A stretch of DNA of 64,000 nucleotides from Fuerstiella sp. GTDB lineage: Bacteria > Planctomycetota > Planctomycetia > Planctomycetales > Planctomycetaceae. Below are positions 1,846 through 43,556 of this stretch, piece after piece. The notes below the pieces were generated by a model. It saw nothing but the letters and a program-made list of their open reading frames with translations. It was not told the origin of the DNA and searched no databases. The translations under genes were made by a program, and so were the position numbers. The stretch's first letter is position 1. Each line of letters opens with the position of its first letter. Where the stretch lies: positions 1 through 64,000 of the forward strand of contig JALHMY010000017.1 in NCBI GenBank assembly GCA_022843805.1. The letters are read 5' to 3'.

Positions 1846-2014
1846 GTTCAATGCGGGAGGTTCACCGCACTGCCAATCCGAAAAATGCTTCTGAGAAGCA
1901 TTTGGAAGTACCAAAACCTGAACGTGTATACCACTTTCAGCGAGAGTGGTGCGTTGTCGCCCTGGCCGGTATTCGGCAGGGCGGTGTCAGTAACCGACCA
2001 GGAAGGATTATCCC

Positions 2015-3766
2015 TTGACCAGGACCGTCACGAAACAGAAAGCGTCTTCTCCAGCGAGTTTGCCAAAATGTGCAACTGGCATTCCGGGGCTGGACGAGAT
2101 CACGGGTGGTGGGCTTCCCAAAGGCAGAACGACCCTGGTCTGCGGCGGGGCTGGCTGCGGCAAAACACTCCTGGGAATCGAGTTCCTTGTTCGGGGAGCC
2201 ACACTGTACGATGAACCAGGCGTGTTTATTGCCTTCGAGGAAACCGCAGAAGAACTGGCTCAAAACGTTTGCTCGCTCGGCTTCGATCTTGATGACCTCA
2301 TCGAGACCAGGAAGCTGGCGGTAGACTATATCTACATTGAGCGTAGCGAGATCGAGGAAACGGGGGAGTACGACCTTGAAGGACTGTTCATTCGCCTGGG
2401 CCATGCGATTGACTCCATAGGGGCGAAGCGGGTTGTACTCGACACTCTGGAGACGCTGTTCAGCGGCCTGTCAAATGTTGCCATCCTGCGATCCGAGTTA
2501 CGCCGTCTTTTTCGCTGGCTCAAGCAAAAGGGCGTCACATCCATTGTCACCGCCGAGCGGGGTGAAGGCTCCCTTACCCGACACGGACTGGAAGAATATG
2601 TCTCCGACTGCGTGCTACTCCTGGATCACCGTGTCGAAGGGCAAATCTCAACCCGCCGCCTGCGGGTTGTCAAGTATCGAGGCTCGGTCCACGCCACCAA
2701 TGAATTCCCGTTCCTGATTGATGAGGGCGGTATCTCTGTCCTGCCGATCACGTCGCTACAGTTGCAGCACAAGGCATCCATTGAGCGAATTTCCAGCGGT
2801 GTTCCGGCCCTGGACGCCATGCTGGGCGGTCAGGGGTTCTTTCGAGGCAGCAGCGTCCTGGTGTCCGGCACGGCGGGCGTTGGGAAGACCAGCCTTTCGT
2901 GTCATGCTGCCGATGCCTGCTGTCAGCGGAATGAACGCTGTCTGTATTTCGCTTTCGAAGAATCAGAAGCCCAGCTGCTTCGCAACATGCGGTCGATTGG
3001 CCTTGATCTCGAGCCGTGGGTGAAGAAAGGGTTACTGCGCTTTCAAGTCGCCCGTCCGACCATGAACGGCCTTGAAATGCATCTGGCAGGTATTCACAAG
3101 CAAGTCGAAGCGTTCCAGCCGCATTTAGTGATTGTTGATCCCATTACGAGCTTCCTTTCGTCAGGGACCGACAGCGAAGCAAGTTCCATGATGGTGCGGT
3201 TGGTTGATTACCTGAAGTCACGTCAGATTACGGCTTTCCTCACGAATTTGAACCACGCCGGAAGCGTCCTGGAGCAGACGAATGTGGCGATTTCTTCCCT
3301 GATCGACACCTGGTTGCTTCTGCGGGACATCGAACTGAACGGTGAGCGCAATCGGGGACTGTACATTCTAAAGTCTCGTGGAATGGCCCACAGCAATCAG
3401 ATTCGAGAATTTCTGCTGACTGAGAAAGGCGTCCAGCTCACCGACGTTTACCTGGGTCCGGAAGGCGTTCTCACTGGTTCAGCAAGACTTTCCCAGGAAG
3501 CAAAGGCCACGGCGACGGCAGTGCAGCGCAGCCTGGAGATCGAAAGGAAGCGGGGAGAGCTGGCACGAAGGCAACAAGGGCTGGAGGCTCAGATCGCCGT
3601 TCTACAGCTGCAATTTCAAACCGACAGGGAAGGAATGGAACAGGACATTACCAATGAACAGGCGTATTTGGAAAGACTGGAACAGAGCCGTCACGAAATG
3701 GCGATGAGTCGCAAGGCCGTTTCCAATGGAAATGAGGCACATCCGAAGAAGAAGGGTCACAAATGA
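2015..3766 (+). CDS. kaiC: KaiC-like double-domain ATPase
   Basis: This 583-aa protein has two RecA-type KaiC domains. Domain 1 has Walker A GGAGCGKT and the Glu pair in 'AFEET'. Domain 2 has GTAGVGKT, 'AFEES' and Walker B 'LVIVDP'. By family it should be a hexameric ATPase with autokinase activity. The positions equivalent to the cyanobacterial Ser431/Thr432 phosphosites read Ser427-Ser428 ('AISSLIDT'). After about residue 487 there is a charged coiled-coil tail not found in the 519-aa cyanobacterial protein. The start is TTG with GGAAGG eight bases upstream; no better ATG precedes the first conserved block. Its stop overlaps the following kaiB start (ATGA), so the genes are translationally coupled. 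No kaiA is seen. Confidence 0.9.
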
Positions 3767-4092
3767 CGACGCAGACTAAAGCGAGCGATCACGGGGTTGA
3801 AACTAAAGAGCCGAAGTTGTGGCAACTGCGACTCTACGTCGCCGGGCAATCTCCAAAGTCTGTCACGGCCTTCGCCAACCTCAGGCGGCTCTGCGAGGAA
3901 CACTTAGCCGGTGAATTTGAGATCGAAGTGATTGACCTTATCGAGAATCCTCGACTGGCAAAGGATGACCAGATCGTTGCCATTCCGACCCTGGTCAGGA
4001 AGTTGCCGGAGCCGATCCGGAAAATCATCGGCGACCTGTCCGATACGGAACGAACCCTGGTCGGCCTGCAACTCCGTTCCTCCATGAAGTGA
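3763..4092 (+). CDS. kaiB: KaiB-like protein, first copy
   Basis: A 109-aa protein of the thioredoxin-like KaiB family. The core '[12 protein letters not shown]' strand, the '[18 protein letters not shown]' strand-helix and '[14 protein letters not shown]' with the conserved Pro-Thr are all present. KaiB proteins bind KaiC and in cyanobacteria swap fold to do so. The first 20 or so residues are an extra N-terminal extension. The gene starts inside the kaiC stop codon (ATGA) and is followed 31 bp later by a second, different kaiB, so it belongs to a kaiC-kaiB-kaiB-kinase operon. Confidence 0.9.
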
Positions 4093-4123
4093 CGCAGGGG
4101 ACAATGAAGAAAACGAGCCACGC

Positions 4124-4450
4124 ATGATGATGCAGACAACGACCGAAGTGTTCGAGGAGCGGGTGGCGTATCACTCACAGGAACGCTACGTCCTGTGCCT
4201 GTATGTTGCTGGTTTAACGCCACGTTCGACGCTGGCGATAGAAACCATCCGGGCGATCTGCGAACGCTACTTGTCAGGCCGTTATGAACTGACGATCATC
4301 GACCTCTATTTGCAGCCGGAGATGGCCCGAAAGGCGCAGATTGTGGTCGCCCCCACACTGGTAAAGCAATCTCCGTCGCCAATTCGGTTGTTCATAGGAG
4401 ATATGACGGATGAGACAAGAATTCTTCAGGGGTTGCGAATCGCTTCCTGA
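4124..4450 (+). CDS. kaiB: KaiB-like protein, second copy
   Basis: A 108-aa KaiB-family protein with 'LCLYVAGLTPRS', 'YELTIIDLYLQPEMARKAQ' and 'VVAPTLVKQSPSPIRLFIGD'. It is clearly diverged from the first copy but has the same length and layout, so the pair is an old duplication, not a recent one. Paired kaiB genes beside a kaiC and a PAS kinase are a recurring arrangement in non-cyanobacterial Kai clusters. A second start (ATG at 4127) follows the first immediately, so the exact start is uncertain by one codon. Confidence 0.88.
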   Translation: MMMQTTTEVFEERVAYHSQERYVLCLYVAGLTPRSTLAIETIRAICERYLSGRYELTIIDLYLQPEMARKAQIVVAPTLVKQSPSPIRLFIGDMTDETRILQGLRIAS

Positions 4451-4476
4451 ACCGACCTCTGTCAGAGAAAGCCTCC

Positions 4477-6510
4477 ATGCCAATCACGCCAAACACTAAC
4501 GGCGAACTGCTTGCGGAAATCGAACGGTTGCGCATGCGACTTGAAGAAGCCGAGGCGGTCGTTGAGGCCATTCGGAACGGCATCGTTGATGCGGTCGTCG
4601 TTAATGCCGCTTCCGAGGAGTGCGTTTACACTCTGGACGGGGCCGAGCGTCCGTACCGACTGCTGGTCGAAGCGATGGAACAAGGTGTCGCGGTCCTGAA
4701 TTCGGAGGGAGTGGTTCTTTACTGCAACCCGTGCCTTGCTGAACTGCTCAGAAGGTCCGTGCAACAGATAACAGGATGCACCATCGACAGCTTTGGAGCA
4801 GAAGCCGACCAGACCAGGATCGCGGGACTATGGAGGCATGTCGAAAACAAATCGGCCCACGACGAGATTCTGCTGCGCCGCCATGACGGGACCACGTTCC
4901 CCGCAGCCGTGACTGTCAGTATGCTGCCGTTCCACAACTTCTGTCTCCTGATCTCCGACCTTACCCAGCAACAGCACTACGACGAATTGATCGTGTCTAA
5001 AGCGGCGCTGCTGGACTCCGAGATTCGATATCGACGGCTGTTCGAGACGGCCAAAGACGGCATTCTGATCCTCGACACAGAGAGCGGAAGAATCACGGAC
5101 GCCAACCCGTTCATGGGCGAACTGCTGGGGTACTCACACGAGCATTTCTTTGGTAAGGAACTGTGGGAGATCGGCCTGTTCAGCGACAAAGCGGCCAACG
5201 AAGCCGCCGTGCGAACACTTCAGGACAAGGGATACATTCGTTACGAACACTTGCCGCTGGAAACCAGCGAGGGGCTTCGGGTCGAGGTCGAAGTGGTCGC
5301 CAACGCTTACCGGGAGGACCACCACAAAGTCATTCAGTGCAACATCCGTGACATTACGGAACGCAGCCGTCTGGAAAAACAGACGCAGGAACAGGCGTCG
5401 GCGCTGGCTAAGTTAGACCATCGCAAGGACGAGTTCCTGGCAATGCTGAGTCACGAACTCAGGAACCCGCTGGCCGCAATCACCAATGCCGTGCAACTGC
5501 TGAGTCTTCAGAAGCATGAAGACCCCCTCCAGACTCAGGCCCGAACCATCATCCAGCGTCAGATGGGCCAGCTGATCCGGCTGGTTGATGATTTAATGGA
5601 AGTCTCTCGAATTACATCCGGCAGAATTCATCTTCAAAAAGCGCGGACTGGACTGAACGGCATCGTGGAACGTGCCGTGGAAACGACCCGTTCGCTGATG
5701 GATCAGCATCAGCACGAACTCACGGTGTCGTTATCGCCGCAGCCACTTTGGCTCAATGCCGACGCATCAAGAATGGAACAGATGGTCGTCAACCTGCTTA
5801 CCAATGCTGCTAAGTTCACGACCAAAGGAGGACACATCTCAATTGCCGTTCAGCGGGAAGGTGATGAGGCGGTGCTGCGAGTGAAGGATACGGGCGTTGG
5901 CATCGCCGCCGAACTGCTGCCCCACATCTTTGAACTGTTCACGCAGGCAGAACGATCCCTGGACCGCTCGCAGGGTGGATTGGGCATCGGCCTAAGTCTG
6001 GTGCAACGACTGGTCGAAATGCACGAGGGTCGAGTCGAGGTTTCAAGCGTATTGAGTCAGGGCAGTGAATTTGTAGTTTATCTGCCGATGATGCTGAATC
6101 CCGCAACGCAAATACCATCATCGCTTGAAGTCACCGCCGATCCAGTTGGTCCATCCCTGCGTGTTCTTGTCGTCGATGACAATGTTGACGCGGCTCAGAC
6201 CCTGGGGCTGCTGCTGAAGGCGACAGGTCATGATGCACGAATGGCTTATGATGGGGTCAGCGCCGTAAAAGTCGCTCTCGAATTCCTGCCGAACGTGGTG
6301 CTATTGGACATCGGTTTGCCAGGACTCGACGGTTACGAAGTTGCGAAGCGACTGAGGCAGGACTCATCTCTGGATGGTGTCGTACTGGTCGCAGTGACCG
6401 GTTACGGGCAGGCAACGGATAAGCTGCGTTCGCAGGACGCCGGATTTAATCACCATCTGATCAAACCCGCCGACTTTGCCAGGGTGCAACAGCTTTTGGC
6501 AACTTTGTAG
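4477..6510 (+). CDS. PAS hybrid histidine kinase of the Kai cluster
   Basis: This 677-aa protein is cytoplasmic, with no membrane segment. In order it has an N-terminal coiled coil 'LLAEIERLRMRLEEAEAV', two PAS domains (about 65-170 and 185-300), a HisKA domain with His326 in 'MLSHELRNPLA', a HATPase domain (N box 'NLLTNAAKF', G boxes 'DTGVG' and 'GLGIGLSL'), and a C-terminal receiver with acceptor Asp611 in 'VVLLDIGLPGLDG'. It starts 26 bp after the second kaiB. The context makes it the likely signalling output or input partner of KaiC/KaiB, comparable in role to SasA, though it lacks the KaiB-like sensor of SasA. Its final phosphotransfer target is not in the window. Confidence 0.9.
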   Translation: MPITPNTNGELLAEIERLRMRLEEAEAVVEAIRNGIVDAVVVNAASEECVYTLDGAERPYRLLVEAMEQGVAVLNSEGVVLYCNPCLAELLRRSVQQITGCTIDSFGAEADQTRIAGLWRHVENKSAHDEILLRRHDGTTFPAAVTVSMLPFHNFCLLISDLTQQQHYDELIVSKAALLDSEIRYRRLFETAKDGILILDTESGRITDANPFMGELLGYSHEHFFGKELWEIGLFSDKAANEAAVRTLQDKGYIRYEHLPLETSEGLRVEVEVVANAYREDHHKVIQCNIRDITERSRLEKQTQEQASALAKLDHRKDEFLAMLSHELRNPLAAITNAVQLLSLQKHEDPLQTQARTIIQRQMGQLIRLVDDLMEVSRITSGRIHLQKARTGLNGIVERAVETTRSLMDQHQHELTVSLSPQPLWLNADASRMEQMVVNLLTNAAKFTTKGGHISIAVQREGDEAVLRVKDTGVGIAAELLPHIFELFTQAERSLDRSQGGLGIGLSLVQRLVEMHEGRVEVSSVLSQGSEFVVYLPMMLNPATQIPSSLEVTADPVGPSLRVLVVDDNVDAAQTLGLLLKATGHDARMAYDGVSAVKVALEFLPNVVLLDIGLPGLDGYEVAKRLRQDSSLDGVVLVAVTGYGQATDKLRSQDAGFNHHLIKPADFARVQQLLATL

Positions 6511-18606: not shown

Positions 18607-19557
18607 TTGAAGCTTTGTGAACATCCGGATTTTGATCAGCTCATCGTGAGAACGGCACAGCACTTCGCGTCGCAGGGATTCCGGGAAGAGTTTATCGAGA
18701 AAGACTATTATGCGATGGGCGTCCTACGGGCCGTCGCATCGCATGCGTTCGACCGAGTGATTTTTAAGGGCGGCACGAGCCTGTCCAAGGCGTGGGGCCT
18801 GATCGATCGATTCTCAGAAGACATCGATTTGTTCTTCGATACCGCGATGCTTGGGCACAATCCCACGCGAGGCCAAAAGGACCGGGCCTTGAAGGGCATT
18901 CGCGATGCCGTCGCAACCGCGACCGGCATGCCAGCGGAAGGCAAATTCTCCAAAGCCGGGTTTCGGCGTTCGGAGTATTTCAGCTACACCCCGAAATTCG
19001 CAGCGTCCATGCAGCCGAAGATCCTGCTGGAGATCTCAACAGCCAGTGGGCGAGAGCCGAAAGAGACCGTGCCGCTTCGGTCCTATGTGTCACAGTTTCT
19101 TGTCGACCAAAGGATCACTCTGGGGGCCGAAGACGAAGGGCCGTTCGATGTTCAGGTGCTGCATTTCCGCCGGACGTTCGTTGAAAAACTCTTCGCCATT
19201 CATGGCTATGTCCACCGGCAGGTGACCGAGCAGCGGCCCATCGGCAGCTACGCACGGCACTATTATGACCTCCATCAATTGTCGCTGCGTGAAGAGGTGG
19301 GACAGTTGCTGGCATCCGCCGAATACGTCACGATCAAGGACGACTATGATCGCATCTGCTCCGAATCCTATCCGGACGTGTATGTGCGTCCCGAAGGACT
19401 CACCTTCCGAGATAGCCCAGCATTGTTTCCGGATGCAGCACTGGAGACGAGCCTGAGACTGCAGTACGAAACCCAATGCAAAGTATTGTGTTTCAAGGAC
19501 TACCCGTCGTGGGATGCGGTCCGTAAAGTGCTTGCTGCCATGCGAGATCGATTGTAA
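18607..19557 (+). CDS. AbiEii-like nucleotidyltransferase toxin
   Basis: A 316-aa protein of the AbiEii/AbiGii (DUF1814) toxin family. The nucleotidyltransferase motifs are present: 'VIFKGGTSLSKAWGLIDRFS' with Lys54-Gly-Gly-Thr-Ser, then Ser70-Glu-Asp-Ile-Asp74, the metal-binding acidic pair. Characterised relatives transfer nucleotides to targets such as tRNA acceptor stems and cause growth arrest in phage defence. The start is TTG preceded by AGGAGG at four bases. With the preceding antitoxin it forms a complete two-gene unit. The distal part ('YARHYYDLHQL') also fits the family. The specific target is unknown. Confidence 0.87.
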   Translation: MKLCEHPDFDQLIVRTAQHFASQGFREEFIEKDYYAMGVLRAVASHAFDRVIFKGGTSLSKAWGLIDRFSEDIDLFFDTAMLGHNPTRGQKDRALKGIRDAVATATGMPAEGKFSKAGFRRSEYFSYTPKFAASMQPKILLEISTASGREPKETVPLRSYVSQFLVDQRITLGAEDEGPFDVQVLHFRRTFVEKLFAIHGYVHRQVTEQRPIGSYARHYYDLHQLSLREEVGQLLASAEYVTIKDDYDRICSESYPDVYVRPEGLTFRDSPALFPDAALETSLRLQYETQCKVLCFKDYPSWDAVRKVLAAMRDRL

Positions 19558-24866: not shown

Positions 24867-25112
24867 GCTACAACCATTCAGTCTGTACTGAAGAGTGTAG
24901 AGATGAGGATTTTTTGGCAGATTTCTAGGTTTTGATAACAGTTGTGGCAGTATATGCGTCTTTGCGGATCGGGAATCTGTTCTTGACCTTTTATGAACAG
25001 ATTTTCGTTTCCGTCAACCTTGACAGCTCTGAACTTTGGGTTCACGCTGGACCGTGTTTGCCGATGATTTTTTCACTCGGCTGCTCAGCTTTTGGAAGGA
25101 GTTTGCGACGGT

Positions 25113-26054
25113 ATGCGTCTCTCAGCACTATCACTTTTTGCTGGCTGCGGAGGCAGTGATCTTGGCCTTAAATCAGCAGGCGTGGAAGTAATCTGGGCCA
25201 ATGAAAAAAACGAGTCGGCCTGCGATTTCTACTCCCACGTCACTGGTTCATCACGTATTGAACATTGCGATATCACGCGACTTGAGAAATTTCCAAAAGC
25301 AGATTTGCTTGTCGGTTGTTATCCGTGCCAAGGCTATAGCCAAGGCGGTCGTCGCAAGTCCGACGCTTCCATCAACTTCCTTTATCGTCAATTTGATCGC
25401 GCACTTCGCCAAGTCAAGCCACGCGGGTTCATCGTGGAGAATGTTGACGGGATGCGATTTTCTCAGAATTCTTCACTTTTAGTGAACCAGATCACGAGAT
25501 TTCGGAGTGCAGGCTATCGGGTGAAATGGAATGTATTGAACGCTCAAGATTTCGGAGTCGCCCAAACACGCCGGAGACTTTTCATCGTTGGTGTTCGAAC
25601 CAATGAGTCAGGAGTATTTGAGTTTCCATCCCCAACCCATGGAGTCTGCGGAAATCCGCATCTATGCCAACGGGATGCAATTCATCGCTTTCGAAAGCAA
25701 ACGAACGGCACATATAATCAGGACGAATTCCATTGGTATTATCTGTCACGAAATCGACGACGAGAATGGCATGAGGCAGCAGCCACGGTTGTTGCAAAAG
25801 ATCGGCATGTTGCCCTGCATCCAGACAGCCCTCCATTGAGGAGGTTAAGCACCGACAAATGGGAGTTTATTGGTGATATGCAGAATGCGAGACGCCTTTC
25901 CTACCTGGAATGCGCTGCTCTTCAAGGATTCCCAGACCCCAAAGTCTTCTGTCGGCAAACACTCAGGTTAAGGTACCGGGCTATTGGCAATGCCGTGCCT
26001 CCGCCGTTATTTGCAGCGGTGACAAGACAAATGCTGCTTACGCTCGATTCATAG
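25113..26054 (+). CDS. C5-cytosine DNA methyltransferase
   Basis: A 313-aa Dcm-type enzyme. Motif I 'LSLFAGCGGSDLGL' (SAM binding), motif IV 'GCYPCQGYSQGG' with nucleophile Cys72, motif VI Glu109-Asn-Val, motif VIII 'QTRRRLFIVG', motif IX 'RRLSYLECAALQGFPD' and motif X 'YRAIGNAVPPPL' are all in order. The region between VIII and IX (target recognition) is short, about 80 residues. ATG at 25113 was chosen because the conserved motif I begins seven residues later and GGAAGGAG lies upstream. Its 3' end overlaps by 17 bp the end of a convergent nuclease-like gene. Local base composition is AT-rich relative to the flanks, suggesting acquisition. Confidence 0.92.
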   Translation: MRLSALSLFAGCGGSDLGLKSAGVEVIWANEKNESACDFYSHVTGSSRIEHCDITRLEKFPKADLLVGCYPCQGYSQGGRRKSDASINFLYRQFDRALRQVKPRGFIVENVDGMRFSQNSSLLVNQITRFRSAGYRVKWNVLNAQDFGVAQTRRRLFIVGVRTNESGVFEFPSPTHGVCGNPHLCQRDAIHRFRKQTNGTYNQDEFHWYYLSRNRRREWHEAAATVVAKDRHVALHPDSPPLRRLSTDKWEFIGDMQNARRLSYLECAALQGFPDPKVFCRQTLRLRYRAIGNAVPPPLFAAVTRQMLLTLDS

Positions 26055-27021
26055 TTCTAATTTTTTGAGTCATTGTTCCCATAAACTTTTCTTCGCAAGT
26101 CAAGCATTCAGGATGGCTATGCGCGAGTAACACTAACCGAATCCGATCAAAAAAGAGAACCTTCGCTTCATTCTGCTTCATATAAAGCTGAGTCAAGGAC
26201 GCCACATGTTGACTTGTCGCAAAAGCGAATAGTGGCTGAGGCGTTGTAATGCGGTCAAAGAAAGTACGAAGCCAACCCATGTCCAATTCTTTGTGCTTTC
26301 GCGAATCATCATCTACGTCGTGCTTTCCGCACCCACATTGCCCCACGATGGTCAAGGCTCCAGGTCGCCCGTCCAAAAGCGGTCGTCTAATCACTAAATC
26401 AATTCTCGCGTCTTTTGCCTTAGAAATTTGATGTTGCATAAGGGACGCGTTGTTTATAACCCACTCATCTTCACCGAAAAAACACTTAGACTTCATTAGG
26501 GAAATCCTCGCATGAATTCCCTGAGTTGTCGACTCAAAGTCACTTTCGCTTGGCCATCCGCATCTGTAGCCGAACGAGCCTGCTCCACAAAATGCAATGA
26601 GAAGTTTTGTGGCGACTCGTTCAAAGTGGCGTATTAACCTTTGAAATCCTTTCTCTGGATACATGACGGCAGCGCAGGTCGCAAGGCAGAACTCATATAG
26701 TCCAGGCTTGGCTTGTCGGTTCCTGTACGTCAGCCCGGAACCAGATACTTCAAATGGATACAGTTCACCTAACAGTCGTTGTCGCTCGGCGATTACTTCC
26801 AGTGCCTCTCCGCTGAGTTTCGCCTCTCCCAACAACTCTTTTTGCCAAATTGGCGTTTGGAATGGTGATTCGTCTGTTTCAGAATCTCCAATGTCATAAG
26901 CCTCTCCAGAAATTCGTTCGTCCAAAGTACACATAGAGACGGAAGTGACTCCGTCCTTGAAGGCAAGCAATTCCGCCTGATCTGCACTAAAAGAACCCCG
27001 TTGCGTCAGCTCAATTGTCAT
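26038..27021 (-). CDS. Putative nuclease partner of the methyltransferase
   Basis: A 327-aa protein of no family I can name with certainty. Its centre has 'ARIDLVIRRPLLDGR' then 'LTIVGQCGCGKHD' (Asp208, Gln228, Lys233), a spacing like the D-x(n)-(E/Q)xK core of PD-(D/E)XK nucleases and reminiscent of the 'GQC..GK' strand of some restriction-like proteins. Downstream 'PLFAFATSQHVASLTQLYMK' and 'KVLFFDRIRLVLLAH' look like further core strands and helices. It is convergent with the methyltransferase, and its ATG overlaps the stop of the ParB-like gene (ATGA), so the two minus-strand genes are coupled. The restriction role is inferred from context and this motif only. Confidence 0.6.
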   Translation of the reverse strand: MTIELTQRGSFSADQAELLAFKDGVTSVSMCTLDERISGEAYDIGDSETDESPFQTPIWQKELLGEAKLSGEALEVIAERQRLLGELYPFEVSGSGLTYRNRQAKPGLYEFCLATCAAVMYPEKGFQRLIRHFERVATKLLIAFCGAGSFGYRCGWPSESDFESTTQGIHARISLMKSKCFFGEDEWVINNASLMQHQISKAKDARIDLVIRRPLLDGRPGALTIVGQCGCGKHDVDDDSRKHKELDMGWLRTFFDRITTPQPLFAFATSQHVASLTQLYMKQNEAKVLFFDRIRLVLLAHSHPECLTCEEKFMGTMTQKIRTMNRA

Positions 27022-28199
27022 TTTGAATCGTCCATTTCAGTTCTCTTTCGGCGCCGTGACGAAGATTGGAGCAATTCTTGTAGTCGTTCTGTACGTTCAA
27101 CAATCTGATCAGATTGGTCACGCAATTCCCTCAGCGTTTCCTTCGTAATTCCAGTAAACCCACTGGCTATCGCGACGGATTTGGCAAGGGCCACATCTGC
27201 CTTCTTTAACAGTTCGGAAACCCGGTTTTCAGGAGGCTCGATTTGTTCCAAGGCTGCTTCAACAGAATCGCCGGTTCGAAGTGCGGACAATGAATCGTCA
27301 TTCGACAAAGCGACGGCTAGTTGGCCAATTCTTCTGGAATCGTCGATAGCTGCGTTTCGTCCTGAAGCACCAAAAAGGAACTGCAAAAGCTGACCAGCTT
27401 TTTTCAAAGAGGCTTCGGGGATAGGGTTTGCAGACACTTGGAATTCGGATGGAAGGCCCACAAATGATCGCACGCTCTTGTATCCAAGACTTGTATAAAC
27501 CCAACTGAACGGAAACTCTTGAAATGAACCGCGACCCTTACGCAGGCTGACTGCCGGGTCATAGGCATTTGTTTCAATCACCTGATTCACAAAATAGTAT
27601 CCCTCAACGATTCGTTCAACAAAACGCTGATCATCTCCAATCATGGTTCGGATATCTTCAATGGAAAGATTGCTTTGGATGAGTGTATTTGCTACCCATG
27701 CAGCCTTTGCGTATGAATCCCATTGTGCCCCCCCAACGATGTGCCGAATTCCTAAATACGGCAAGAGCTTTTCGCGATGTTCTGTATTGCTCCAATCGTA
27801 TACCTGTACCGGGATCTTTGAATCTTCCGTAAAGTTCTTTCCTCTATACTTGACTGAAAGCGATTTGTGCTTCGCGGCACGTTCATCTGCGGCAAGAATT
27901 AGACAGGCTGTTAGCCGCCTGTTTCCTTCCAAGATTGTCACTTCTTTCCCATGAGATTTGTTGATGGCACCAACTAAGGGCTCGGAGTCGAAATACCCGT
28001 TTGAGGAAATTGAACAGAGCACATCAGTTATTCCGTGCTGTAGAACAATTTCGTCGAGAGTTTGAATCTCTCTAAGTTGTGCTGTACGAGTCGTGCCTTT
28101 AGTGCTGAGTCGTCCGCCAAATCTCGGGTTACCATCGTCCAGGTGCAAAGCAGCAACTGACAAACGCTGAAGGCTGCCATCGGACTTGATCTTTGCCAT
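27018..28199 (-). CDS. ParB/Srx-like domain protein of the restriction-like module
   Basis: A 393-aa protein. An N-terminal ParB/sulfiredoxin-type domain is indicated by 'LSVAALHLDDGNPRFGGR', the 'ISSNGYFDSEPLVGAIN' stretch and 'VTILEGNRRLTACLILA' (Glu91-Gly-Asn-Arg-Arg95), the signature associated with nucleotide binding in this fold. The rest is helical and ends in a charged coiled coil and 'SSRRRKR'. ATG 28199 begins the conserved part; a TTG at 28286 is in frame but adds poorly conserved residues. It overlaps the nuclease-like gene by four bases. ParB/DUF262-fold proteins act as regulators or NTPase modules in several restriction systems; here the role is inference. Confidence 0.7.
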   Translation of the reverse strand: MAKIKSDGSLQRLSVAALHLDDGNPRFGGRLSTKGTTRTAQLREIQTLDEIVLQHGITDVLCSISSNGYFDSEPLVGAINKSHGKEVTILEGNRRLTACLILAADERAAKHKSLSVKYRGKNFTEDSKIPVQVYDWSNTEHREKLLPYLGIRHIVGGAQWDSYAKAAWVANTLIQSNLSIEDIRTMIGDDQRFVERIVEGYYFVNQVIETNAYDPAVSLRKGRGSFQEFPFSWVYTSLGYKSVRSFVGLPSEFQVSANPIPEASLKKAGQLLQFLFGASGRNAAIDDSRRIGQLAVALSNDDSLSALRTGDSVEAALEQIEPPENRVSELLKKADVALAKSVAIASGFTGITKETLRELRDQSDQIVERTERLQELLQSSSRRRKRTEMDDSK

Positions 28200-28608
28200 T
28201 TGAATACTCGGCTTTGCACACACAACTGGTAAAATATTTGCTCGGATGATATCTGCGACGATTTGGTACGCAATCGACGAGAACAACTCAATGATTTAAA
28301 GTCAGCGGGATTCTGGAAAGAGCCAGCATTGGGAGAATCCATCGCTTATGGCTCTTCGAAGTACGTAATGGAATGCAGCGACGCGAGCGAGACCGCTTCG
28401 GGGCCACTCCCTCACTCACTAACTGGGACACCGAACAAAAGTGTGCTTCTCGTTTTGAGGGAAAACCACCAATTTGCTGCAGTTGGGACATGAAAGCTTC
28501 GACTTCTGAAATGGCGGGATAGGCTCTGCAGGCCGACAAGCCGGTTCATCTGGCCAGCTTCCCGCTTCTTCAATCCCAGATGATCACTTTCCAGATGGAT
28601 TGAGCGTA
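28200..28608. other. Intergenic between the ParB-like gene and the integrase
   Basis: Divergent promoter region. On the minus strand at about 28430-28560 a frame reads 'KLSCPNCSKLVVFPQNEKHT' followed by 'FVRCPS', like half a zinc ribbon, but it has no start codon and stops early. No excisionase gene is seen. Confidence 0.4.
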
Positions 28609-29745
28609 ATGGCCGGCAAACGCCCAAAGGTCAAGGTACACGTCACGAAGTACAAAAAAGAAAAAAACCTCGTGATGAGGTACGTTGACCCCGTTTCCGG
28701 TAAACAGATTCGCCGGTCGACGGGTACAACCAATCGTTCTGAAGCTTCGAAAATTGCCGGCCGGTGGGAAGATGAATTGAACACCGGAAAGTTCAAACCG
28801 TCCGAAGATCTGACCTGGGCAGAATTTCGTGAGCGGTTTGAGGATCAGGCAATTCGTGACATGTCCGATGGATACTTTTCGGCATTTCACTCAGCGTTCA
28901 AGCGGTTCGAAGAGTCCACGGGAATTCAGTTGTTGAAGGACCTTCCCGAAGTATTTGATTCTTTCGATCTCAGTCTTCGGCGAAGCGGGCTGTCCTCCAG
29001 CACAGTCCGGACGTATCTCAAACATCTCCGAGTAGCGATCAACTGGGGAGTTGAGAAAGGCTATTTGAGCGAGTCGCCAAAGGTTCGCCTTCCTGATGCC
29101 CCGGACGAAATGAAGGGACGGCCGCTGACAGATTCAGAGTTCCAAGCAATTCTCAATGCTGTACCGGGTTATGTTGGGGAACTACTTGCCCCCGGCTGGG
29201 AACGATATCTTCGCGGTTTGTGGCTTTCAGGACTGCGCCGTGAAGAGTCGTTGATTCTGTCGTGGGATCAGCATTCCCCGTTCTCGATCGACATGACGGG
29301 GCTTTATCCGCGGTTCAGAATCTCTGCCAAGGCCCAGAAGAGCCGGAAGTCTCAACTGCTGCCAATGACGCCTGATTTTGCTGAATGGTTACTGGGGGAG
29401 GTCCAGAAGCCTGACAGAAACGGGCTGGTGTTCAGTCCGTTTGGAACTTCCGGGGCTCGCCTGACGGGTTCTGAGGTCGGAAGGTACGTCTCGGCCATCG
29501 GCAAAGCCGCTGAAGTGGAAGTTAAGCCAGGATCCGGGAAATTCGCCAGCTGCCACGACTTTCGGAGGTCGTTTGGAACTCGCTGGTCGCGCCGAGTGAT
29601 GCCGGCCGAATTGAAACTGCTCATGCGGCATGCCAGCATTGAGACGACGATGAAATACTATGTGGGCATTGAGGCGGATGACATCGCGACCGGGTTGTGG
29701 GCAAGATTCAGTCCGATAGAGAGTAGAGCTCTTTCCAACCCTTAA
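28609..29745 (+). CDS. int: Tyrosine recombinase (integrase of the tRNA-Pro element)
   Basis: A 378-aa site-specific recombinase. An N-terminal arm-binding part ('YKKEKNLVMRYVDPVSGKQI') is followed by a core-binding helical domain (about 70-165) and a catalytic domain. Catalytic residues are visible as Arg in 'WLSGLRREESL', the H-x-x-R box in 'CHDFRRSFGTRW', His in 'LLMRHASIETT' and Tyr in 'MKYYVG'. ATG 28609 was chosen over an in-frame TTG at 28600. The gene points towards the tRNA-Pro attachment site about 0.7 kb away. It presumably made, and could reverse, the insertion bounded by the 42-bp repeat. Confidence 0.9.
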   Translation: MAGKRPKVKVHVTKYKKEKNLVMRYVDPVSGKQIRRSTGTTNRSEASKIAGRWEDELNTGKFKPSEDLTWAEFRERFEDQAIRDMSDGYFSAFHSAFKRFEESTGIQLLKDLPEVFDSFDLSLRRSGLSSSTVRTYLKHLRVAINWGVEKGYLSESPKVRLPDAPDEMKGRPLTDSEFQAILNAVPGYVGELLAPGWERYLRGLWLSGLRREESLILSWDQHSPFSIDMTGLYPRFRISAKAQKSRKSQLLPMTPDFAEWLLGEVQKPDRNGLVFSPFGTSGARLTGSEVGRYVSAIGKAAEVEVKPGSGKFASCHDFRRSFGTRWSRRVMPAELKLLMRHASIETTMKYYVGIEADDIATGLWARFSPIESRALSNP

Positions 29746-41208: not shown

Positions 41209-41484
41209 TGGCGGACCCCTCTGATGATGGAAACCAGGAAACCTGCGGATTAACGTGTGTCGTTCTTCAGCCATGTCAGACTTATCAGGGTGTACAGTTT
41301 TGCTGAACCGGTCACGGCCGACATAGAATCTGACGGGGCACTATTTCTGAAGAATCTTCTCACGCGAAAATCGATTCTGTCCCAGGATCGTACCTGACCG
41401 GGACCCACAAAGAGAAGTCTGGTAATGCTCGGTTTGTTTCATAAAGAGTCCCTAATCACCCGACACAGCAGATGAGCATTGTGC

Positions 41485-42726
41485 ATGAACAGCAGTTCGA
41501 CAACACCGGCCGTCTTCGCGATCGCCACCATGGATACCAAGGCAGACGAGATTCTTTGGGTCGCATCCTGTCTGCGATCAGTCGGAATCAGTGTATGCGT
41601 CGTCGATGTCAGCACTCAGAATATGACTTCCGGGCAGGCAGATGTCCTTTCTGAGTCGGTACTTGCAGCCAGTGGAACGACGTTTCAGGAGTTACAGCAA
41701 CTGGATCGTGGCGGAGCGGTAACGTGCATGACGAATGCTCTCAGGATCTGGCTGTTGCAGCAGTTTTCGAAAGGAATCGTTCAGGGTGTCATCGGTATTG
41801 GTGGAAGCGGCGGCACCGCAATCATCAGTGGTGCCATGCGTTCGCTGCCGGTGGGATTGCCAAAACTGATGGTGTCGACCGTTGCCAGCGGAAATACCAG
41901 TCCGTATGTCGACTGCAGTGACATCTGCCTGATGCCGTCGGTTGTTGATGTGGCGGGGTTGAATTCCGTTTCCTGTCGGATTCTCGGAAACGCAGCACAT
42001 GCCATGGCAGGAATGGTTCGCTGGGACCTGCCTGCAAATGCGACGAAGCCTGCAATCGGACTGACCATGTTTGGTGTAACGACAACCTGTGTTACGCGAG
42101 TGAGGCAGAAACTGGAGCAGCAGGGTTTTGACTGCCTGGTGTTTCATGCGACCGGAACCGGGGGGCGTTCAATGGAGAAGCTGGTGGAATCCGGACTGAT
42201 TCAGGGAGTGCTTGATATCACGACCACAGAGGTTGCGGACGAAATTGCCGGGGGAGTGTTTCCCTGCGGAGCTGATCGATTCGACGCGATTCTGAAAAAG
42301 CAGATCCCGTTCGTCCTGAGCGTCGGAGCACTGGATATGGTCAATTTTGGTGCGAGAGAAACAGTTCCGGAGCATTATCGTGATCGAAAACTCCACGTGC
42401 ACAACGCGCATGTCACGCTGATGAGAACGACAGCTGAAGAGAATCGAAGGGCGGCCGAATGGATTGCGAAAAAACTGAACAGGTCAGAATCTCCGGTATC
42501 TGTCGTGTTTCCGGAGCATGGTGTTTCCGCGATCGACCGCGCCGGTCAGCCATTTTTTGACCCGGAGGCCGACGGCGTGTTGTTTTCGTCGCTGCAGGCA
42601 TCTCTGCATCAGACGGCATCCCGACGATTGCTCCGTCTGCCCATGCATATCAACGACGACGCCTTTGCGGACGCACTGACGGCCGAGTTTCTTCGCCAGA
42701 CACAATTGCTTAAGGGAGGACAATAA
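41485..42726 (+). CDS. UPF0261 (Tm-1-like ATP-binding) protein
   Basis: A 413-aa protein of the UPF0261 family, related to the tomato Tm-1 resistance protein N-terminal region. Visible conserved blocks are '[20 protein letters not shown]', '[20 protein letters not shown]', '[20 protein letters not shown]' and '[14 protein letters not shown]'. Family members pair with the PEP-hydrolase-like protein encoded immediately downstream; plant homologues have both parts fused. Here the stop and next start overlap (TAATG), supporting a functional pair. The reaction is not established. Confidence 0.87.
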
Positions 42727-43556
42727 TGACAGAAACACGTCAATCCATTCTGGAGCGTTTTTATCGAAAAGTTGAACAGGGTCACCTCATTATTGGTGGC
42801 GGCGCGGGAACCGGCATCAGTGCTAAATGTGAGGAAGCCGGAGGGATTGATCTGATCGTCATTTACAATTCCGGCCGTTTTCGCATGGCTGGGCGAGGAT
42901 CTCTGGCGGGGCTGATGCCCTATGGAAATGCCAATCAGATTGTCCGCGAAATGGCGTTCGAAGTGCTGACTGCAGTTCGCCACACGCCGGTTCTTGCCGG
43001 AGTTTGTGCCACAGATCCGTTTATGCTGCGGACAAATTTTCTTCAGGAACTGAAGGTCCTGGGATTCGCGGGGATACAGAATTTCCCAACGGTAGGGCTC
43101 ATTGATGGAATTTTCAGGGAGAATCTGGAAGAAACGGGGATGGGTTTCGGCCTTGAAATTGAGTGCATTGCGGAGGCACACCAGCTGGACATGCTGACAA
43201 CGCCGTATGCATTTGATCCGGACCAGGCAAAGGAACTGACGCGTGCCGGAGCCGACATTATTGTTGCGCATATGGGACTGACGACGAATGGAACGATCGG
43301 GGCGGCGACGGCGCTCTCACTGGAAGAATGCGTGGATCGAGTCGCAGGGATTGCCGATGCGGCACATTCGGTTCGACGTAACACCATTGTTCTGTGTCAT
43401 GGCGGGCCCATCGCGATGCCATCAGATGCCGCATTTGTAATGCGGGAGGTGCCTCAGATTCACGGTTTCTATGGAGCCAGTTCGATGGAGCGACTGCCAG
43501 CGGAAATCGCGATCACTCAGCAGGTACAGGACTTTGTTCAGTTGCGACGAACTTGA
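42726..43556 (+). CDS. Phosphoenolpyruvate hydrolase-like TIM-barrel protein
   Basis: A 276-aa protein of the PEP_hydrolase (TIM-barrel signal transduction) family, the second half of the Tm-1-like pair. Blocks include '[20 protein letters not shown]', '[20 protein letters not shown]', '[13 protein letters not shown]', '[19 protein letters not shown]' and '[18 protein letters not shown]'. Its start overlaps the UPF0261 stop by one base and has AGGAGG nearby, so translation is coupled. The name comes from a fungal enzyme of the family; the bacterial substrate is unknown. Confidence 0.87.

Follow-up and report, generated by a model that had tools for sequence, protein, structure and literature searches.

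The KaiBC proteins of Rhodobacter sphaeroides are reported to work as an ATP/ADP-driven hourglass, in which KaiC forms a dodecamer, autophosphorylates independently of KaiA and is reset by ATP/ADP (PMC10076222). Both this hourglass idea (PMC10076222) and clusters of the order kaiC-kaiB-kinase (PMC3164672, PMC4794148) are already in print, and the proto-circadian timekeeper of Rhodopseudomonas palustris has the same succession of kaiC, kaiB (single, as described) and a PAS histidine kinase gene, together with a KaiC C-terminus about 50 residues longer (PMC4794148). In cyanobacteria, the histidine kinase expected to read KaiC by its N-terminus is SasA, the front of which is a KaiB-like thioredoxin fold; no such domain is present in SasA homologues outside the cyanobacteria, and the conclusion of one survey was that output in the remaining bacteria and archaea must take another pathway (PMC5520375). 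Here we describe a kai cluster in the first 64,000 nucleotides of contig JALHMY010000017.1 (assembly GCA_022843805.1; hereafter the window) of the planctomycete Fuerstiella sp. The cluster represents, in a planctomycete, a clock-like gene arrangement that is widespread, and its kinase starts with a segment of about 61 residues, termed the head, that is apparently undescribed and almost confined to clock-gene neighbourhoods.

The cluster occupies positions 2015-6510 of the window and consists, all on the + strand, of kaiC (2015..3766, 583 amino acids), a first kaiB (3763..4092, 109 amino acids), a second kaiB (4124..4450, 108 amino acids) and a gene for a PAS-PAS hybrid histidine kinase (4477..6510, 677 amino acids). 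The first kaiB overlaps kaiC by 4 nt; 31 nt separate the two kaiB genes, and another 26 nt lie between the second kaiB and the kinase gene. Pfam and NCBIfam profiles support the identity of all four proteins, in agreement with a first-pass annotation, made from the DNA alone, of a Kai-like cluster of coupled or nearly coupled genes with two kaiB copies and a PAS hybrid kinase. The same annotation reported the absence of kaiA, which holds among the cluster genes, the remaining genome not having been searched for KaiA. Throughout the genome (9.2 Mb, 172 contigs), the KaiB matches are the cluster's two and there is one two-domain KaiC; two weaker, partial KaiC-domain matches lie outside the cluster. 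KaiB was found in one of four genomes of the genus, the present one, and the nearest loci belong to metagenome-assembled genomes (MAGs) of uncultured Schlesneria, with KaiC identities of 80-87 percent.

The R. sphaeroides system (KaiC structures 8DBA and 8FWI, KaiB structure 8FWJ) shares with this cluster a KaiC2-type KaiC with a Ser-Ser pair and a C-terminal tail, the kaiC-kaiB-kinase order in an operon without KaiA, and an operon kinase that begins with the head; it differs in having one KaiB and an HWE kinase, whereas the window encodes two KaiB proteins and a HisKA hybrid kinase with a receiver. That the R. sphaeroides kaiBC operon includes a gene for a PAS protein or a kinase has been published (PMC6627678, PMC5520375); the main text of PMC10076222 has zero occurrences of "operon" and of "histidine kinase", and its covered passages do not mention the operon kinase. 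Neither the head nor the two KaiB clades were found described in the running text of open-access articles, a scope that leaves aside figures (e.g., Fig. 4 of PMC3164672) and supplements. Three features pointed out in the first-pass annotation, namely the Ser-Ser pair, the tail and the two kaiB genes, are no oddities but the rule in this group; what goes beyond that annotation is that the two KaiB proteins belong to two old clades and that, in the partner protein, the part that stays constant is the first ~61 residues of the kinase.

Within the kinase, the head (residues 10-70; 4504..4686) comprises a long helix, a β hairpin and the cap helix of the first PAS domain, according to alignment A1 and structural models. 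It is followed by the first PAS domain (PF08448, residues 65-165; 4669..4971), a second (PF13426, residues 194-295; 5056..5361), a HisKA domain (PF00512, residues 317-382) with phospho-acceptor His326 in an SHELRNPL motif (codon 5452..5454), HATPase_c, and a receiver (PF00072, residues 563-673) with phospho-acceptor Asp611 in LLDIGLPG (codon 6307..6309), so that the protein has the complete domain set of a hybrid kinase with both His and Asp in place. The head consensus over the 42 sequences of alignment A1 is xLxxExxxLRxRLxEAEETLxAIRxGEVDALVVxGxxGxQVFTLxGAExPYRxLxExMxEG, with Ile32, Gly35, Asp38, Tyr60 and Arg61 of the window kinase near-invariant. Compared with Pfam, NCBIfam and Protein Data Bank sequences, it gave chance-level matches at best (E 0.0066, 0.0067 and 0.16, respectively). 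Pfam finds no KaiB match in the window kinase; a degenerate KaiB/SasA domain, considered as the origin of the head, is unsupported, since comparison with the KaiB profile gave a probability of 0.1 on the percent scale and no alignment. Mean pairwise identity is 0.51 in the helix, 0.51 in the hairpin and 0.54 in the PAS cap, falling to 0.39 and 0.23 in the rest of PAS. The parts behind the head vary: among 74 head proteins, from which four cut-off proteins are omitted, HATPase_c occurs in 52, HisKA in 47, HisKA_2 in 4, HisKA_3 in 3, HWE in 1, a receiver in 24, GGDEF in 6, EAL in 6 and HD in 1, and 12 of 73, counted with the same omission, are PAS-only proteins with a chain ending at 226-231 residues. 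In AlphaFold single-chain models of the window kinase and of one betaproteobacterial head protein, the predicted helix spans residues 6-33 and 2-34, and the predicted hairpin residues 39-44/47-52 and 40-45/48-53, respectively, with PAS following in both.

The relatives compared here are the best 80 of 505 loci ranked by similarity to the window KaiC, a sample that leans to its own kind. A head stands at the start of the protein after kaiB in 75 of these 80 loci. In four of the remaining loci (L039, L088, L092 and L097), the contig stops about 1 kb or less from kaiC. L085 has its head gene on the side of kaiC, at a distance of 2.9 kb from KaiB. The linkage was also seen in draws amounting to 977 genomes from four phyla, including four centre genomes, in which the best 21-34 first-look candidates per genome were scored. 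KaiB exceeded the Pfam cut-off in 83 of these genomes and the head was detected in 40 (44 matches), of which 38 had KaiB (Fisher 1.2e-42, kinship ignored); minus the four centre genomes, the figure is 34 of 36 (Fisher 1.9e-38, kinship likewise ignored). On the same contig, 41 of the 44 matches lie no more than 3 kb from KaiB and 38 no more than 700 bp, mostly near 50 bp. When all candidates were scored in 20 whole genomes with kai loci, 19 contained the head: one match in 16, two in G306 and G309, and three in G310.

The presence of the head differed between gene orders. Of 88 locus ids that the searches in the draws gave, taken as short stretches round the match, 77 had a distinct KaiB above 60 bits; among these, the head was present in 34 of 39 with kaiC before kaiB, in 0 of 28 with kaiB before kaiC, and in 2 of 10 stretches without KaiC. 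Nine of 18 KaiB-bearing plasmid records were retrieved, and all six of the examined plasmid loci with kaiC before kaiB encode a head (two R. sphaeroides, Falsirhodobacter, Rhizobium BG4, Sinorhizobium B11 and Pararhizobium; 54.9-88.3 bits). No head was found in the Aquisphaera kinase beside kaiB-kaiC or in the Hymenobacter PAS protein beside a lone KaiB. In Ramlibacter-type KaiC-"Nt_HK" loci, too, the gene after kaiC encodes a histidine kinase whose N-terminal segment is conserved (PMC3164672), but these loci differ in having no kaiB; in the four examined kaiB-less plasmid loci, the kinase adjoining kaiC has no head (at most -1.6 bits), and its N-terminus is receiver-like by eye. Repeated heads also occur. 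A betaproteobacterial MAG (L054) has two head segments ~0.3 kb apart behind one kaiB, and in three contigs from the archaeal draw (G891:C8, G917:C1 and G902:C1) a single kai locus is flanked by two head proteins, which in two of these genomes are encoded on opposite strands.

The kaiC product (PF06745, E 1.4e-104; PRK09302, 739.7 bits against a cut-off of 408) contains CI and CII RecA-like domains and is, judging from its sequence, of the KaiC2 type. Its closest counterpart among solved structures is R. sphaeroides KaiC 8DBA (phmmer E 3e-197, residues 16-554 aligned, tail included), cyanobacterial KaiC being a much weaker match (about E 1e-102). The phosphosite pair proposed in the first-pass annotation, Ser427-Ser428 (codons 3293..3298), aligns with R. 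sphaeroides Ser413-Ser414, and the chain of 8FWI, an S413E/S414E mutant, shows Glu-Glu at these columns. Across 83 loci (the window, its 80 relatives and two from plasmids), these two positions read SS in 76, SA in three, TS in two, SM in one and ST in one; all 83 have the EE pair in CI and 82 have it in CII, and the Walker A motifs are kept. Of the residues in the R. sphaeroides allosteric network (PMC10076222), Trp433, Tyr450, Leu452 and Arg464 are identical in the window KaiC, and Ile463 replaces Val449. The extra C-terminal tail (residues 487-583; 3473..3763) corresponds in the phmmer alignment to the dodecamer coiled coil of R. sphaeroides, and tails of this kind are found mainly in the KaiC2 subgroup (PMC10076222). 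Past the REFLL..QL stretch it measures 94-117 residues in all 83 loci. The tail itself is thus borne out in length and alignment, and its putative coiled coil is suggested by the alignment and by a weak heptad periodicity, matched by 47 of 2000 shuffles. The TTG start called earlier was upheld as well: a Shine-Dalgarno-like AGGAAGG (2000..2006, + strand), recognised by sequence inspection, ends 8 nt before it. At the aligned codon, seven near relatives (L035-L040, L046) have TTG in two, ATG in one, ATC in one and ATT in three, most of them preceded by an AAGGA-like stretch, and weak or non-AUG initiation of kaiC may be characteristic of this lineage.

Both small proteins carry the KaiB domain (PF07689; E 3.9e-28 and 1.4e-21; 97.4 and 76.5 bits against a Pfam cut-off of 27), and both fall below the NCBIfam KaiB equivalog cut-off (95.8 and 74.5 against 110). 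The 80 closest KaiC loci contain two kaiB genes in 72 cases, three in one, four in one and one in six; two of the six single-kaiB loci (L039, L088) run out at a contig edge, and the multiple copies stand in tandem after kaiC, four in L041 and three in L060. Named carriers among the relatives include Spirosoma, Mucilaginibacter, Geomonas, Larkinella and Candidatus Methanoperedens. In a FastTree phylogeny of 179 KaiB sequences, the second copies of two-copy loci (74 of 74) form one clade, KaiB-beta, with support of 0.963 and no first copies inside, and the first copies (74 of 74), here called KaiB-alpha, group with single copies and with the R. sphaeroides and cyanobacterial KaiB proteins. These two unmixed clades (74 vs 74) rule out local kaiB duplication, and the KaiB pair is therefore of old origin, with members in bacteria as well as archaea. 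Diagnostic changes in the beta clade include Ile54 to Leu, Leu60 to Tyr/Phe/His, and Lys87 mostly to Arg (Leu in the window). Fold switching of R. sphaeroides KaiB requires prolines P58, P65 and P67 (PMC11551320). Their counterparts are kept in 74, 74 and 74 of 74 first copies (Pro75, Pro82 and Pro84 in the window) and in 74, 74 and 69 of 74 second copies (Pro77, Pro84 and Pro86), so that the second KaiB should still be able to switch fold. Fusions of KaiC with KaiB, or of KaiB with the head, were absent among the open reading frames (ORFs) of 114 loci, the long stop-to-stop ORFs of L015, L016 and L018 being merely extended frames.

Taken together with the described systems, the locus is best read as a KaiA-free, ATP/ADP-driven KaiC2-KaiB energy/time module that is read by a head-bearing kinase, a reading to which we assign a probability of about 0.5. 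By analogy with R. sphaeroides, the KaiC hexamer or dodecamer would be held together by its tail and would autophosphorylate at Ser428/Ser427 when ATP is high. At low ATP/ADP, the fold-switched first KaiB would occupy the ADP-bound CI ring, accelerating ATP hydrolysis and keeping KaiC dephosphorylated. The kinase would dock through the helix and hairpin of its head on KaiC or on the KaiC-KaiB complex, and the Kai state would thereby control both autophosphorylation at His326 and phosphotransfer onto Asp611. The head would then be a functional stand-in for the KaiB-like domain of SasA, unrelated to that domain, and the second KaiB would most likely compete with or tune the first. A broader proposal is tentative and, in our estimate, falls slightly short of even odds: that the head is a domain devoted to docking on Kai proteins, the KaiB-unrelated counterpart of the SasA front, through which KaiC2-KaiB modules in bacteria and archaea drive exchangeable outputs (phosphorelay or cyclic-di-GMP), and that, with the ancient second KaiB, it constitutes a separate non-cyanobacterial output pathway.

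Several observations weigh against this reading. Within operons, co-inheritance alone could explain the linkage of the head. The hairpin is the least confident part of both models (blocks of 57-72 in the predicted local distance difference test), and one of the 80 loci, L113, is a true headless exception, its source genome (G307) having no head match when all candidates were scored. Two head matches in the draws are partial and weak, one in a genome without KaiB (G211, E 5.9e-5) and one beside a 33.5-bit KaiB fragment (G424, E 4.1e-6), and a full-length second head copy (G306:C29) is not beside a recognised KaiB. Five loci with kaiC before kaiB in the draws are headless; in the four inspected, the next gene encodes a receiver-first protein (L226, L229, L230), perhaps an alternative reader, or a response regulator (L192). 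Partial distance correlations over 71 loci, drawn from non-independent pairs, are 0.39 between head and KaiB-alpha, 0.28 between head and KaiC and 0.05 between head and KaiB-beta, agreeing weakly with docking on KaiC or KaiC-KaiB-alpha.

The alternative that fares best is an energy or stress switch with no timekeeping at all, a real possibility though not the one we would expect. Many of the carriers are non-phototrophic lineages by their record titles, e.g., Bacteroidota and methanotrophic archaea, as a switch would suit, whereas R. palustris shows a kaiC-dependent growth benefit in 24-h cycles (PMC4794148). The first-pass annotation had offered an hourglass timer or stress switch; a KaiA-free hourglass fits, R. 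sphaeroides KaiC being the closest characterised protein, and sequence alone does not separate timer from switch. It is unlikely, though not negligibly so, that the head is an ordinary signalling helix and dimer cap before PAS, an ancestral kinase front that travels with the operon and makes no Kai contact. Consistent with such a front, both models predict a long N-terminal helix running into PAS, the 50 Foldseek matches listed for the head-PAS model are PAS/LOV-type proteins, some with N-terminal helices, and head, KaiC and KaiB distances correlate at 0.60-0.78, as for an operon inherited as a unit. Yet the head is better conserved than the remaining PAS, includes a hairpin and is kept while the enzymatic rear is swapped, and only three head matches in the draws lie away from kai loci, though PAS kinases are common. 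Equally doubtful is a signal in the reverse direction, with the PAS kinase acting as a sensor of redox, light or a ligand and informing KaiC/KaiB through the head, as a device for input or entrainment. PAS domains are sensory and the PAS-only head proteins have no enzyme in the same chain, but most rears are enzymatic (HATPase in 52 of 74, GGDEF in 6 of 74), favouring output over input, and R. sphaeroides KaiC itself senses ATP/ADP (PMC10076222). That the second KaiB is a specific bridge between KaiC and head is quite improbable, even though it has its own clade and directly precedes the head gene in most loci, because single-KaiB loci, that of R. sphaeroides among them, also have the head: 14 of the 40 head genomes have a single KaiB (24 have two or more), the head therefore does not depend on the second KaiB, and the correlation of 0.05 likewise disfavours an obligatory partnership.

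Elsewhere in the window, overlapping ORFs on the - strand upstream of kaiC (765-1106 and 367-768, together 367-1106) look by eye like two halves of one major facilitator superfamily transporter, a gene that may be frameshifted. An AbiEii-type nucleotidyltransferase (PF08843, E 8.1e-35) lies at 18607-19557. The stretch 25092-29745 encodes a C-5 cytosine methylase (PF00145) and a phage-type integrase (PF00589), with two convergent ORFs between its limits (26038-27021 and 27018-28286) that have no Pfam match, and is possibly a mobile restriction-like island. Adjacent genes at 41479-43556 encode a UPF0261 protein and then a phosphoenolpyruvate-hydrolase-like protein. Promoter and terminator scans gave counts close to those of shuffles (5 vs 2.3 and 8 vs 6.1) and were left unused, and PHROGs profiles added nothing.

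With its ~61 residues, the head accompanies KaiC2 loci across four phyla, and in the KaiBC system that has been studied best it likewise opens the operon kinase. It makes the question of Kai output outside the cyanobacteria directly approachable by binding and kinase assays, and the second KaiB clade raises the question of why most such systems keep two KaiB proteins. The head is a good candidate for the means by which a Kai timer is read in bacteria without the cyanobacterial wiring.

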